Notes under the pieces: generated by a model | Database searches by the model: none | What the model saw: the letters and a program-made list of their open reading frames with translations, nothing else | Told to the model about the DNA's origin: nothing | Part shown: positions 14,938-49,569 of the stretch, one piece after another | How the letters are laid out: each line of letters opens with the position of its first letter | Position numbering within the stretch: position 1 is the first letter of the stretch | Source: Blattabacterium cuenoti | GTDB taxonomy: Bacteria > Bacteroidota > Bacteroidia > Flavobacteriales > Blattabacteriaceae | Assembly (NCBI RefSeq): GCF_014252355.1 | Contig: NZ_CP059217.1 | Coordinates: 351,273-415,272 of the forward strand | DNA length: 64,000 nt | Reading direction: 5' to 3' | Program-made: the position numbers and the translations under genes

Positions 14938-14951
14938 AAAAAATCATATTG

Positions 14952-15671
14952 TCATTTTGACAAATTACGATTTTTTTTTCTATGAAAAATTGAATGTTGT
15001 TTATTTACTTTATGTCTTTTATGTATCCGAAATAATGGATATAAATCTCTTTTTCCATAAATTTCTCCTTTCATAATCCAAACTTTAATTCCTATACTAC
15101 CATACATTGTATGAGCTACTGCCATATGATAATCCACATCTGCACGAAACGTTCCTAATGATATTCTTCCTTCTTTATAATATTCACATCTAGCCATTTC
15201 AGCTCCATTTAATCTTCCAGACATTTGAATTTTAATTCCTTTAGCATTCATTCTCATTGCAGAAAAAATAGAAATTTTAATTGCCTTTTTATAAGAAATC
15301 CTATTTTCTAATTGTTTAACTAAATTTTTTGCTACCAAAGAGGCATCTAATTCTGGACGTTTTACTTCAGATATATTAATTTGAATTTCTTTTTTAGTAA
15401 TTTTTTTTAATTCTTTTCTCACTGTATCTACTTCTTCACCTCCTTTTCCAATTACAATAGCAGGACGAGAAGTTCTAATAGTTACAGTAATAAATTTCAT
15501 AGTTCTTTCTATAAAAATTTTAGATATAATCCCTTTAGGAAACCTAGCTTCAATATATCTTCTAACTTGAAAATCTTCTTTTATTCTTTCTTTATAATTT
15601 TTACACCATGAAGATTGCCATCCAATAATAATTCCTAAACGATTCATAATTGGATTAGTTTTTTGTCCCAT
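14952..15671 (-). CDS. rpsC: 30S ribosomal protein S3
   Basis: A 239-residue S3 with an N-terminal KH domain ([20 protein letters not shown], about 75-94) and the C-terminal domain with [23 protein letters not shown]. It begins MGQKTNPI. The coding sequence ends inside a palindrome (TTGTCATTTTGACAA at 14949-14963), described separately. Confidence 0.98.
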
Positions 15672-27463: not shown

Positions 27464-27478
27464 ATGACTTTTTGTCAT
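27464..27478. promoter_or_regulatory. inverted repeat upstream of dnaK
   Basis: ATGAC-TTTTT-GTCAT is a perfect five-base inverted repeat in the divergent rplM-dnaK intergenic region, centred at 27471 and about 62 bp upstream of the GG of a possible -24 element. A related palindrome lies at 47518-47532 upstream of groES. It could bind a regulator for either divergent gene; this is inference. Confidence 0.4.
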
Positions 27479-27531: not shown

Positions 27532-27547
27532 TGGCATAATCATTGGA
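27532..27547 (+). promoter_or_regulatory. weak sigma-54-like -24/-12 element upstream of dnaK
   Basis: TGGCATAATCATTGGA compares with the consensus TGGCAC-N5-TTGCW: the -24 GG and the TTG of the -12 box match at correct spacing, but the -12 GC is GG. It ends 43 bp before the dnaK ATG. The 168 bp region holds no other gene. A sigma-70-type promoter could equally serve dnaK. Confidence 0.35.
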
Positions 27548-27587: not shown

Positions 27588-29549
<1,962 letters not shown>

Positions 29550-43441: not shown

Positions 43442-44626
43442 ATGAATATTCCTATTATTTCATCATTATTAGATAATGATTTTTATAAATTTACTATGCA
43501 AAATGCAGTATTGAAATTATTTCCTAATGTTAAAGTACAATATAAATTTATAAATAGAGGTTCTCATTGTTTTCCAAAACATTTTGGAGAAATTTTAAAA
43601 GAAATATTATCTTATATGCAAAATTTAAAATTAACTAATCAAGAACGATTATATTTAGAACAATATTGTCCATGTTTTGATTCTTTTTATTTAAATTTTT
43701 TAACTAATTATCGATTTGATCCTAAAGAAATCACTATTATACAAAAATACACTAATATCAAAATTTATATTGAAGGATTATGGAGTAGAACAATTTTATG
43801 GGAAGTTCCATTATTAGCATTAATAAGTGAATTATATTATAAATTAACTTATTTAAAACATATTTCATACGAAAAAATTATTTATTCAACAATCAAAAAA
43901 TTAATACAATATCAAAATTTAGATGTTAAAATAGGAGAATATGGTACTAGAAGAAGATTTTCTTATAAAGTACATAAAATAATTTTAAAAATTCTTAATA
44001 AGAAAAAATATACATCCTTCATTGGAAGTAGTAATCTTCATTTTTCTAAAAATTTTTCTATTAAACCAATAGGAACACAAGGACATGAATGGATTATGTT
44101 TCATGCAGCAAAATATGGTTTTTATAAAGCTAATAAATTTGCCATGATAAATTGGATTAATATTTATAAACATAAATTATATAATATAGCTTTATCTGAT
44201 ACTTATACAAGTCCCCTTTTTTTTAAAAATTTCAATAAAAAATTATCAAATCAATTTGAAGGTATTAGACATGATAGTGGAGATCCATTTATATTTATTA
44301 ATAATACACTAAAACATTATAATAAATTTAAGATTAATCCATTAAATAAAACTATTATATTTTCAGATAATTTAAATCCAAATAAAGTTGCTAATATTTC
44401 ATTTTTTTGTAAAAAAAAAATTAATACATTATTTTGTATAGGAACTAATTTTACTAATGATGTTGGAGTTCCATTTTTAAATATAGTAATTAAAATAATT
44501 AACACACAATATAAAAAAAATAAATGGATATATGTAGTAAAATTATCGGATAATAAAACTAAATCAACAGGAGACAAAAATATGATTATGTTAGCCAAAA
44601 AAATAGTTAAAAAATGTTTATTATGA
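43442..44626 (+). CDS. pncB: Nicotinate phosphoribosyltransferase
   Basis: A 394-residue enzyme making nicotinate mononucleotide from nicotinate and PRPP for NAD. Family segments are SLLDNDFYKFTMQNAVL (8-24), GEYGTRRRFS (165-174), SNLHFSK, GTQGHEWIMFH with the regulatory His215, and IRHDSGDP. This implies salvage of nicotinate, perhaps host-supplied. The TGA stop lies inside a direct repeat noted separately. Confidence 0.95.
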   Translation: MNIPIISSLLDNDFYKFTMQNAVLKLFPNVKVQYKFINRGSHCFPKHFGEILKEILSYMQNLKLTNQERLYLEQYCPCFDSFYLNFLTNYRFDPKEITIIQKYTNIKIYIEGLWSRTILWEVPLLALISELYYKLTYLKHISYEKIIYSTIKKLIQYQNLDVKIGEYGTRRRFSYKVHKIILKILNKKKYTSFIGSSNLHFSKNFSIKPIGTQGHEWIMFHAAKYGFYKANKFAMINWINIYKHKLYNIALSDTYTSPLFFKNFNKKLSNQFEGIRHDSGDPFIFINNTLKHYNKFKINPLNKTIIFSDNLNPNKVANISFFCKKKINTLFCIGTNFTNDVGVPFLNIVIKIINTQYKKNKWIYVVKLSDNKTKSTGDKNMIMLAKKIVKKCLL

Positions 44627-44637
44627 CATAATGACAT
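44623..44637. promoter_or_regulatory. ATGACAT direct repeat upstream of miaB and the sigma-54 activator
   Basis: ATGACAT-A-ATGACAT differs at one base from the palindrome ATGTCAT-A-ATGACAT upstream of groES. It overlaps the pncB stop codon and lies 41 bp before miaB. No -24/-12 element is visible in the intervening sequence. A regulatory role is speculative. Confidence 0.3.
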
Positions 44638-44677
44638 TATATTTTATATACCTTTATATATAACAATATCTTTTTTT

Positions 44678-46012
44678 ATGTTAAATACAATTAATAATAA
44701 TCTGTTTTATCTTGAAACTTATGGTTGTCAAATGAATATTTCAGATAGTGAAATTATAATTTCTATATTATTAAAACAAGGATTTTATTTAACATATAAT
44801 ATAGAAAAAGCTAATATAATTTTATTAAATACTTGTGCTATACGAGAAAATGCCAAAATGACTATTTTAAATAGATTACAATATTTAAAATCATTATATC
44901 AACATAAAAAAAAAATATTTGGAATTATTGGTTGTTTATCTAAAATAGATAACGAATTTTTCTCTAAAAAACTTGTAAATTTTTCAATAAATCCAAATTC
45001 TTATAAAGAAATTCCAAAAATTATTAATTATATAAAACAAGGAAAAAAAATTGAATTTCATAAAAATAATAAAATAGAAACTTACGAAAATATATATCCA
45101 TTTAGACAACAATATAAAGTTACTGCATTTTTAAGTATTATTAGAGGATGTAATAATATGTGTACATTTTGTATTGTACCTTTTACAAGAGGACGAGAAA
45201 TAAGTATAAGTCCATATTCTATTATTAACGAATGTAAAAAATTATATAATAATGGATATAAAGAAATAACATTATTAGGCCAAAATGTAGATTCTTATTC
45301 TTGGAAAGAAACTAATAAAAAAAATAATTTAAATTTTGCTAAATTATTAAATATGTTAGCTATTCAATTACCATTTATGAGAATTCGATTTACAACCTCT
45401 AATCCTCATGATTTTTCTGATGAAGTAATTAATATTATATCTAAATATTCTAATATTTGTAAACATATTCATTTACCAGTTCAATCTGGAAGTAATAAAA
45501 TGTTAAAATTAATGAATAGAAAGTATACCAGAGAAAGTTATATATATTTAATCAAAAAAATTAAAAATACAATACCTGAATGTTCTATATCTCATGATAT
45601 TATGACTGGATTTTGTAACGAAAATGAAGAAGATCATAAATATACAATTAGTTTAATGAATGAAATTAAATATCATTATGGATATATGTTTATTTATTCT
45701 CCAAGACCTGGAACGTATGCTTATAGACAATTATCTGATAATGTTCCATATAAAACAAAACAAAAAAGATTACAAGAAATTATTAATCTTCAAAAAGAAC
45801 ATTCTTATTTTAACATGAAACAATATATAGGACAAATACAAGAAGTTTTAATTGAAGGAAGATCTAAAAAAAATGATTTGTATTGGTATGGAAAAAATAC
45901 ACAAAATATTACAGTAGTTTTTCCAAAAAAAAATTATAAAATTGGCAATTTTGTTAATGTAAAAATATTAGATTTTACATCAGTTACATTAATAGGCAAT
46001 ATTATAAATTAA
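44678..46012 (+). CDS. miaB: tRNA-2-methylthio-N6-isopentenyladenosine synthase
   Basis: A radical-SAM methylthiotransferase of 444 residues modifying A37 of tRNAs. The N-terminal cluster Cys are Cys17, Cys53 and Cys86, and the radical-SAM CxxxCxxC is Cys158, Cys162 and Cys165 (RGCNNMCTFCIVPFTRGRE). A C-terminal TRAM domain follows. Its prerequisite enzyme MiaA begins at 63888. It lies 6 bp ahead of a sigma-54 activator gene. Confidence 0.96.
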   Translation: MLNTINNNLFYLETYGCQMNISDSEIIISILLKQGFYLTYNIEKANIILLNTCAIRENAKMTILNRLQYLKSLYQHKKKIFGIIGCLSKIDNEFFSKKLVNFSINPNSYKEIPKIINYIKQGKKIEFHKNNKIETYENIYPFRQQYKVTAFLSIIRGCNNMCTFCIVPFTRGREISISPYSIINECKKLYNNGYKEITLLGQNVDSYSWKETNKKNNLNFAKLLNMLAIQLPFMRIRFTTSNPHDFSDEVINIISKYSNICKHIHLPVQSGSNKMLKLMNRKYTRESYIYLIKKIKNTIPECSISHDIMTGFCNENEEDHKYTISLMNEIKYHYGYMFIYSPRPGTYAYRQLSDNVPYKTKQKRLQEIINLQKEHSYFNMKQYIGQIQEVLIEGRSKKNDLYWYGKNTQNITVVFPKKNYKIGNFVNVKILDFTSVTLIGNIIN

Positions 46013-46018
46013 TTGTAA

Positions 46019-47269
46019 ATGGAGCATATTATTCAAAATATCAAAAGGAAACTTAATATTATTGGAAATGATTATGTATTACATAGAGCTTTAAAAAAAT
46101 CTATTCAAGTTGCTCCAACTGATATTTCAGTATTAGTTTTAGGCGAAAGTGGAGTCGGTAAAGAATTTATTCCAAAAATTATTCATCAATTTTCATACAG
46201 AAAACATTCTCCATATATTTCTATTAATTGTGGAGCTATTCCAGAAGGAACTATTGATAGTGAATTATTTGGACATGAAAAAGGATCTTTTACTGGTGCT
46301 AATAAGATGAGAAAAGGATATTTTGAGGAAGCTAATGGAGGAACTATTTTTTTAGATGAAGTTGGAGAATTACCAATTTCTACTCAAATACGTCTTTTAC
46401 GAATATTAGATTCTGGAGAATTTATTAAAGTTGGATCTTCTAAAATTCAAAAAACTAATATTAGAATCATTGCTGCTACCAATTTAAATATGCAAAATTC
46501 AATTCAAAATGGTAAATTTAGAGAAGATTTATATTATAGATTAAATACTGTTGAAATTACTATACCAGCATTAAGATTTAGAAAAAATGATATTAGATTA
46601 TTAATCAAAAAATTTGCTCATGATTTTTCTGAAAGATATAATATGCCATTTATACAATTTACAGAAGAATCTATACAATATTTAGAAGAATATCCTTGGC
46701 CTGGCAATATTAGACAATTAAAAAATGTAATAGAACAAATTTCTGTGGTAGAAATAAAAAGAAAAATTTTTTTAGATAAATTAAAAGAATATTTACCAAA
46801 TAATATTCCATCTATTACTCATTCTCCTCAGTCTCATTATGAGAATATTTTTTCTAATTTTTCTAATAATGAAAAAGATTTTTTATATCAATTGTTATTT
46901 GATATTAAAAGTAATTTAAATAATTTAAAAAAATTAATATTTCAATGGATTAAAAAAGATGATATTTTTTTAAAAAAAAATAAACATTTAATAGAAACAA
47001 TATTTGGAAATATATTTCATTCATCTATTTCTGAAAAAAAATATGATTCTATTTATCAATTAATAAATTCATCATCATCTTCTTCATTATCAAAAAATAA
47101 TATTACTGTAAAAAACAATGAATTGAATTCTTTTTCACTTCAACATAAAGAAGTTGAATTTATTCAAAAAGCTTTAATTAAACATAGAGGAAAAAGAAAA
47201 CAAGCTGCAAAAGATTTAGGAATTTCTGAACGAACATTATATAGAAAAATTAAACAATATGGATTATAA
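46019..47269 (+). CDS. sigma-54-dependent transcriptional activator (AAA+ and Fis HTH)
   Basis: A 416-residue enhancer-binding protein. The AAA+ domain has Walker A GESGVGKE (42-49), the sigma-54 contact loop GSFTGA (89-94, a variant of GAFTGA) and Walker B GGTIFLDEVGEL (107-118), followed by YPWPGNIRQLKN. The C-terminus is a Fis-type helix-turn-helix (KRKQAAKDLGISERTLYRKIKQYG). There is no N-terminal receiver or sensor domain. secG follows, then groES with a sigma-54-like promoter. Targets are not proven; rpoN is outside the window. Confidence 0.93.
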   Translation: MEHIIQNIKRKLNIIGNDYVLHRALKKSIQVAPTDISVLVLGESGVGKEFIPKIIHQFSYRKHSPYISINCGAIPEGTIDSELFGHEKGSFTGANKMRKGYFEEANGGTIFLDEVGELPISTQIRLLRILDSGEFIKVGSSKIQKTNIRIIAATNLNMQNSIQNGKFREDLYYRLNTVEITIPALRFRKNDIRLLIKKFAHDFSERYNMPFIQFTEESIQYLEEYPWPGNIRQLKNVIEQISVVEIKRKIFLDKLKEYLPNNIPSITHSPQSHYENIFSNFSNNEKDFLYQLLFDIKSNLNNLKKLIFQWIKKDDIFLKKNKHLIETIFGNIFHSSISEKKYDSIYQLINSSSSSSLSKNNITVKNNELNSFSLQHKEVEFIQKALIKHRGKRKQAAKDLGISERTLYRKIKQYGL

Positions 47270-47280
47270 CATGAAAATTT

Positions 47281-47511
47281 ATGTATAAAATTATATTACT
47301 TAGTATATTTATGATTTTAATATGTTGTTTACTAATTATTACCATTTTAATTCAAAATCCTAAAAAAGGAATGTTTCATCAACCATTTATTGAAAATAAA
47401 ATCAAATTTTTTGGTATAAAAAAAACTAATTTATTATTAATAAATATAACATGGATATTATCAATTCTTATTTTTTTTTCTATTTGTTTATTTAATTATT
47501 TATTAAAATAA
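47281..47511 (+). CDS. secG: Protein translocase subunit SecG
   Basis: A 76-residue protein with two membrane helices (about 3-25 and 51-74) and the linking segment IQNPKKGMFHQPF, where the second part departs from the usual Gly-rich form. It pairs with SecY in the translocon. It begins 11 bp after the sigma-54 activator and probably shares its transcript. Confidence 0.85.
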   Translation: MYKIILLSIFMILICCLLIITILIQNPKKGMFHQPFIENKIKFFGIKKTNLLLINITWILSILIFFSICLFNYLLK

Positions 47512-47517
47512 TGGATT

Positions 47518-47532
47518 ATGTCATAATGACAT
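47518..47532. promoter_or_regulatory. palindrome upstream of groES (candidate activator site)
   Basis: ATGTCAT-A-ATGACAT has perfect seven-base arms. It is centred at 47525, about 40 bp before the -24 GG of the candidate sigma-54 promoter. That is a short but conceivable distance for an enhancer-binding protein. It begins 6 bp after the secG stop. Confidence 0.45.
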
Positions 47533-47563
47533 TTTTATAAAAAAAAAATACAATTTTATTATT

Positions 47564-47579
47564 TGGCATGTTTTTGGCT
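47564..47579 (+). promoter_or_regulatory. sigma-54-like promoter of groES-groEL
   Basis: TGGCATGTTTTTGGCT fits the consensus TGGCAC-N5-TTGCW with the invariant GG (-24) and GC (-12) at correct spacing and only two mismatches. It ends 38 bp before the groES ATG. In an 80 percent AT background two GG/GC islands at this spacing are unlikely but not impossible by chance. Confidence 0.55.
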
Positions 47580-47617
47580 TTAATATAAATTAACCGTAAA
47601 CTTTAAAAAAAATTAAT

Positions 47618-47896
47618 ATGGTGGACGTAAAGATTAAACCTTTAGCAGATCGTGTATTAATATTACCTGATCAAGCTGAAACACAAACAGCTTCAGGAAT
47701 CATAATACCTGATACAGCTAAAGAAAAACCTCAAAAAGGAACTGTAATTGCAATTGGTCAAGGAAAAAAAAATGAACCTATTACTTTAAAAAAAGGAGAT
47801 AGAGTCTTATATGGAAAATATTCAGGAACAGAATTAAAATGGGAAGAAAAAGAATATTTGATTATGAGAGAATCTGATATAATAGCAATTATATAA
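47618..47896 (+). CDS. groES: Co-chaperonin GroES
   Basis: A 92-residue lid for GroEL. It has [12 protein letters not shown], the mobile loop [21 protein letters not shown] and [13 protein letters not shown]. It lies 29 bp ahead of groEL in one operon, with a candidate sigma-54 promoter upstream. Confidence 0.98.

Positions 47897-47919: not shown

Positions 47920-49569
<1,650 letters not shown>

Follow-up and report, generated by a model that had tools for sequence, protein, structure and literature searches.

A putative sigma-54 activator, its candidate operator and the groESL promoter of Blattabacterium cuenoti point to a retained chaperone circuit

We analysed a 64,000-nucleotide stretch of the Blattabacterium cuenoti genome (NZ_CP059217.1, positions 351,273 to 415,272; hereafter the window), in which the chaperonin operon groES-groEL is preceded by a sigma-54-like promoter, a palindrome, secG and the gene of a bacterial enhancer-binding protein (bEBP). 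The elements at the centre of this study are as follows.

47518-47532, no strand: operator (upstream activating sequence), proposed activator binding site ATGTCATAATGACAT, with the core TGTCATAATGACA at 47519-47531; assigned from its position and its genome-wide rarity.
47564-47578, + strand: sigma-54 -24/-12 box of groESL, TGGCATGTTTTTGGC; assigned from conservation in the genus and in named Bacteroidota.
46019-47269, + strand: bEBP gene, 416 aa, proposed activator and autorepressor; assigned from its domains and as the only bEBP of the genome.
47618-47896, + strand: groES, target; transcription start predicted at about 47590 from the position of the box.
47926-49569, + strand: groEL, target, in the same operon as groES.

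The palindrome has 7-bp arms and a 1-nt centre and ends 31 bp before the box, in which GG and GC stand at GG-N10-GC spacing. An earlier note on this DNA had proposed both elements, perfect arms included, and a sigma-54 activator gene at 46019-47269, and all three were confirmed at these positions. By its letters alone the groES box is weak, with 1.12 matches expected per window at up to 3 mismatches. The genome, a single contig of 567,420 bp that we surveyed by pattern matches and stretches, holds five exact TGGCAYN5TNGC sites including groES; the other four were rejected, as they lie in trpB (antisense), an rRNA, a coding sequence (CDS) and a tRNA. Of the palindrome sequence TGYCANNNTGRCA there are just 3 copies in the 567 kb. 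What lifts the groES observation beyond chance is its evolutionary conservation, not the match in a single genome. Among 37 same-genus genomes (the source included), the 15-letter box was identical in 35 and carried a single variant in another, so that it is kept in 36 of 37, and the activator is present in all 37; the intergenic DNA flanking it has diverged in sequence and length across the genus. The operator TGWCANNNTGWCA, at no more than 1 mismatch, lies upstream of groES in 34/37. In other Flavobacteriales, most genomes in which groES could be located carry a TGGCAY box that includes the -12 G ahead of it, often together with an operator; the -12 doublet is GC in the genus and G followed by C, A or T in relatives. 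In named Bacteroidota (contigs retrieved with a bEBP alignment query, with groES in reach at 22 loci and miaB at 30), a box stood within 160 bp before groES at 22/22 loci (shuffles 0.9%), and box plus operator at 18/22 (shuffles 0). The CIRCE element (controlling inverted repeat of chaperone expression) TTAGCACTC-N9-GAGTGCTAA, through which HrcA controls groESL, had no match in the window at up to 3 mismatches. As a side observation, the distal half-sites of the groES operator in the free-living relatives L039, L044, L046 and L047 lie within a hairpin that resembles a terminator (such as TGCCAGC...GCTGGCATTTTTT) and may terminate the secG transcript.

The bEBP carries a PF00158 AAA+ domain at residues 14-180 (221.9 bits), an AAA lid and a Fis-type helix-turn-helix (HTH_8, 378-414). 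Its Walker A and B motifs read GESGVGKE and GGTIFLDEVGE, and its L1 loop is GSFTGA here and GAFTGA in several orthologues. With AAA+ starting at residue 14 there is no N-terminal regulatory domain, a sensorless PspF-like layout that is shared by the aligned orthologues. The linker that joins AAA+ to HTH is variable except for a conserved segment, E-x-x-L-Y-x-x-L-F-D-M-K-x-D-L-N-D-L-K at residues about 283-310, which could serve in regulation or in binding a partner. The sigma factor gene rpoN, whose presence bears directly on the proposal, is intact, with the activator-interacting (AID), core-binding and DNA-binding domains all above cut-off. Each of the 37 same-genus genomes encodes a single bEBP, and any sigma-54 promoter here must therefore use that protein.

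A similar arrangement was found at two other chaperone genes, dnaK in the window and grpE elsewhere in the genome.

27465-27477, no strand: operator upstream of dnaK, TGACTTTTTGTCA, with 1 mismatch to TGWCANNNTGWCA.
27532-27546, + strand: sigma-54-like box of dnaK, TGGCATAATCATTGG, present in 15/15 sampled same-genus genomes.
27591-29549, + strand: dnaK, target.

At grpE, which was found through the operator search, the operator TGTCACTATGACA is followed 26 bp on by the box TGGCAAAAATTTTGC (G000:C1:78032-78072, G000 being the source genome). This grpE box is present in 30/37 same-genus genomes, and the operator-box arrangement recurs at 24-26 bp in most of them as well as in other families. 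In a blind test, all 77 box-like sites of the genome (1 mismatch allowed) were scored for an operator in the 100 bp upstream. A perfect operator was found at groES and grpE only, a 1-mismatch operator at three sites (dnaK and two inside CDSs), and the rest had at least 2 mismatches. We discarded the two pairs inside CDSs (G000:C1:265059 and 455930), as both lie within open coding sequence, and among the sites found groESL, grpE and dnaK are the only non-coding ones that combine box and operator. The consensus TGWCA-N3-TGWCA is common to the operators at groES, grpE, dnaK and miaB. Other perfect operators occur at 14950-14962 (TGTCATTTTGACA), overlapping the end of rpsC directly before rplP in a ribosomal-protein operon and having no -24/-12 box, and at G000:C1:55287-55299 (TGACATAATGACA; L206), within a frame resembling an M16-type peptidase, where it is probably due to chance. 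We also considered clpB as an additional target and rejected it, as no Clp_N domain was detected in this genome and no box with operator was found at same-genus clp genes; the Clp_N domain (ClpB/ClpC type) was not detected in G000, G036 and G026 and was detected in the other 12 same-genus genomes tested. No sigma-54 target besides groESL, dnaK and grpE was found in this genome, in searches that did not include htpG, lon and hrcA. Chaperone control is thus the likely reason for the survival of rpoN.

The distance between operator and box follows the turn of the helix. Across genomes, distances cluster near 25, 35, 45 and 55 bp at groES and near 25, 34 and 45 bp at grpE, and a Rayleigh-type test on the distinct spacings gave p of about 1e-4 for a period of 10-10.5 bp, a value that is approximate because the genomes are phylogenetically dependent and the spacings not fully independent. 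The dnaK spacings (55-90) fit less well. Steps of about one helical turn are the pattern that would be expected from an activator bound to a fixed face of the helix.

An exact operator also stands before the operon of the activator itself.

44624-44636, no strand: operator TGACATAATGACA upstream of the miaB-bEBP-secG operon, proposed autorepression site, without a -24/-12 box.
44649-44656, + strand: putative -7 element of the primary-sigma promoter of miaB-bEBP, TACCTTTA (compare TANNTTTG).
44678-46012, + strand: miaB, first gene of the activator operon.
47281-47511, + strand: secG (PF03840), downstream of the bEBP gene.

It is conserved in 25/37 same-genus genomes, and in named Bacteroidota an operator was found at 29/30 miaB loci (shuffles 2.8%). 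At 25 of these 30 loci TANNTTTG follows 20-35 bp from the start of the operator, mostly at 29-34 (shuffles 0); in Flavobacterium psychrophilum the -7 element of the primary sigma factor has been mapped as TAnnTTTG (PMC9723704). Across the phylum, the second half-site of the miaB operator, often TTTGTCA, coincides with the -33 element of this primary-sigma promoter. An operator placed on the -33 element has the layout of a repressor site, and it suggests that the bEBP represses its own miaB-bEBP-secG operon. PspF, likewise, represses its own promoter. The bEBP gene here ends at 47269 and secG starts at 47281, and the distance from the bEBP gene to groES is about 0.5 kb shorter than in most same-genus genomes. 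The spacing pattern looks as though this genome, together with G036, G035, G015 and G017, had lost a gene from between the two; in flavobacteria this place is usually taken by lptE.

The distribution of these parts was then compared within the family. We found rpoN in all 49 genomes of the genus searched for it (48 besides the source, about 0.5-0.64 Mb each) and in the genera g20, g22, g25, g26 and g27, and it was absent from the endosymbiont genera g21, g23 and g24. The bEBP orthologue tracked rpoN exactly across these genera; a weak match in G075 was not counted, as it belongs to another AAA+ protein (identity of 37% across 223 residues, with a different sequence and neighbours). The six genera with rpoN (g1, g20, g22, g25, g26, g27) retain the bEBP together with one or more chaperone boxes, namely groES in g20 and g25, grpE and dnaK in g26 and g27, and all three in g22 (1.3-Mb genome). 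Genomes lacking rpoN keep groESL, grpE and dnaK (where found), and no box was present upstream of any groESL, grpE or dnaK examined in g21, g23 and g24. The endosymbionts G089 and G090 (g26 and g27, about 300 kb) kept the grpE and dnaK boxes and lost that of groES, the reverse of the losses in the genus of the source.

These results indicate, with high though not full confidence, that a conserved Bacteroidota proteostasis circuit has been retained in a reduced endosymbiont, and that this locus holds its activator gene together with its chief target promoter. The PspF-like bEBP (46019-47269) would bind TGWCA-N3-TGWCA upstream of groESL, dnaK and grpE, with the operator keeping to one face of the helix with respect to the -24/-12 box, and its ATPase would open promoters occupied by sigma-54 RNA polymerase, stress being the presumed trigger. 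The same protein would bind the operator over the primary-sigma promoter of miaB-bEBP-secG and so limit its own synthesis. As far as sequence can tell, the earlier suggestion of sigma-54 control of the chaperonin in this reduced genome is thus supported. Of the outcomes that the note named as refuting, the two open to sequence comparison, a missing rpoN and loss of the box in relatives with the activator, did not overturn it. Its regulatory neighbourhood of activator, secG and groESL stands as well, although it was drawn too narrowly, because dnaK and grpE also belong to it and the palindrome precedes the activator operon too.

Several observations weigh against this circuit. The groES box has disappeared from G026, the smallest same-genus genome, as well as from g26 and g27, the grpE box is lost in 7/37 same-genus genomes including the closest relative G036, and the miaB operator in 12/37. 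At dnaK the operator has 1 mismatch, its spacing to the box is variable (55-90), and the -12 element here ends in GG rather than GC or GA. No role is known for two of the five exact operators of the genome, the one inside the peptidase gene and the one at the rpsC/rplP junction. Finally, the bEBP lacks a sensor domain, and the approximate p-value of the phasing belongs to the same side of the balance.

Among other explanations, the one that survives best takes the groES box as true sigma-54 DNA and assigns the palindrome to another regulator such as a repressor, with the bEBP acting from solution or on other genes. In its favour, the operator-to-box distances are short for an enhancer: the operator lies just about 20-50 bp before the box, nearer than typical enhancers, and PspF sites lie farther from theirs. 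We nevertheless consider it improbable, since the single bEBP per genome is obligatory for any sigma-54 promoter, the helical phasing of operator and box suits an activator touching polymerase, the operator recurs at the bEBP's own operon as is typical of an autoregulator, and it is gone in genera without the bEBP. Alternatively, the elements could have no function in the endosymbiont and be the decaying remains of what a free-living ancestor used, a view favoured by the loss of grpE and miaB sites in several same-genus genomes and of the groES box in one; given the letter identity of the groES box in 35/37 genomes amid diverged flanks, and an rpoN and bEBP that are intact in every own-genus genome checked despite strong genome reduction, this is very improbable. 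Least credible of all is that the conserved 18-mer belongs to a primary-sigma promoter, because, although TTTGGC includes the -33 word TTTG, the sequence as read offers no good TANNTTTG 19-21 bp downstream, the conserved letters include GG/GC doublets at sigma-54 spacing, the box vanishes exactly in rpoN-less genera that still hold groESL, and a sigma-54 start has been mapped at groESL of a free-living relative (PMC9723704).

The regulon itself is not new, because sigma-54 starts had already been mapped in 2021 in the flavobacterial relative F. psychrophilum, at groESL, dnaK, grpE-dnaJ, htpG, lon and clpB (PMC9723704), and the word "undescribed" in the earlier note does not hold. The SM4 regulon of that species resembles the present one in the sigma-54 promoters of groESL, dnaK and grpE-dnaJ, but it is wider (lon, htpG, clpB, skp and gliding genes) and is served by three bEBPs, compared with one bEBP and three chaperone targets found here; its promoter clusters might match distinct activators, none of which was assigned, and "palindrom" does not occur in the text of the paper (PMC9723704). 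Phylum-wide control of chaperones was also predicted in a 2025 survey, in which GroEL, GroES, GrpE and DnaK are enriched among predicted sigma-54 promoters in Bacteroidota, most strongly in Flavobacteriia (PMC12316311). In the passages considered, the survey is a statistical prediction, without operator, activator or endosymbiont analysis. Its reference 80, a Blattabacterium genome paper cited there for sigma-54-dependent GrpE/GroES transcription in B. thetaiotaomicron and F. psychrophilum, seems out of place. Our literature search, with subscription journals mostly outside its coverage, returned no account of the operator, the activator assignment, the autorepression layout or an endosymbiont circuit, and these, together with the phasing and the co-loss, appear to be new as far as the literature examined goes.

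Among better-known systems, PspF of enterobacteria likewise lacks an N-terminal regulatory domain and consists of AAA+ and a Fis-type HTH. One PspF operator serves both a sigma-54 promoter that the protein activates and its own promoter, which it represses; a corresponding repression may hold here. The targets are cytosolic chaperones instead of psp genes and the operator is closer to the box. A PspA-type inhibitor, the partner of PspF, was not identified here, where no partner search was made. In Bradyrhizobium, groESL3 is under NifA and RpoN, NifA being tied to oxygen and nitrogen fixation; that chaperonin operon is likewise sigma-54-driven, but its activator is NifA, whereas here it would be a sensorless bEBP of another type.

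A bolder proposal, which we regard as rather unlikely at present, is that the sigma-54 system of reduced flavobacterial endosymbionts has collapsed to a chaperone switch of one sigma factor, one autorepressing sensorless activator and about three promoters, with its activity set by the protein-folding state, for instance through a chaperone that binds the conserved linker E-x-x-L-Y-x-x-L-F-D-M-x-x-D-L-N-D-L-K. If true, such control of a bEBP by the folding state would give sigma-54 a feedback loop comparable to those of sigma-32/DnaK and HrcA/GroE.

A paper on Walczuchella described the retention of RpoN there, in Uzinura and in Blattabacterium as unusual and offered nitrogen as a tentative reason (PMC3971599). 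With sigma factor, activator and boxes kept or lost together, the retained RpoN would be explained by proteostasis rather than nitrogen. For free-living Bacteroidota, our results single out the bEBP as the chaperone regulon's likely master activator, give its specific, phased operator and predict its autorepression, and they may thus bear on the control of chaperone genes across the phylum.
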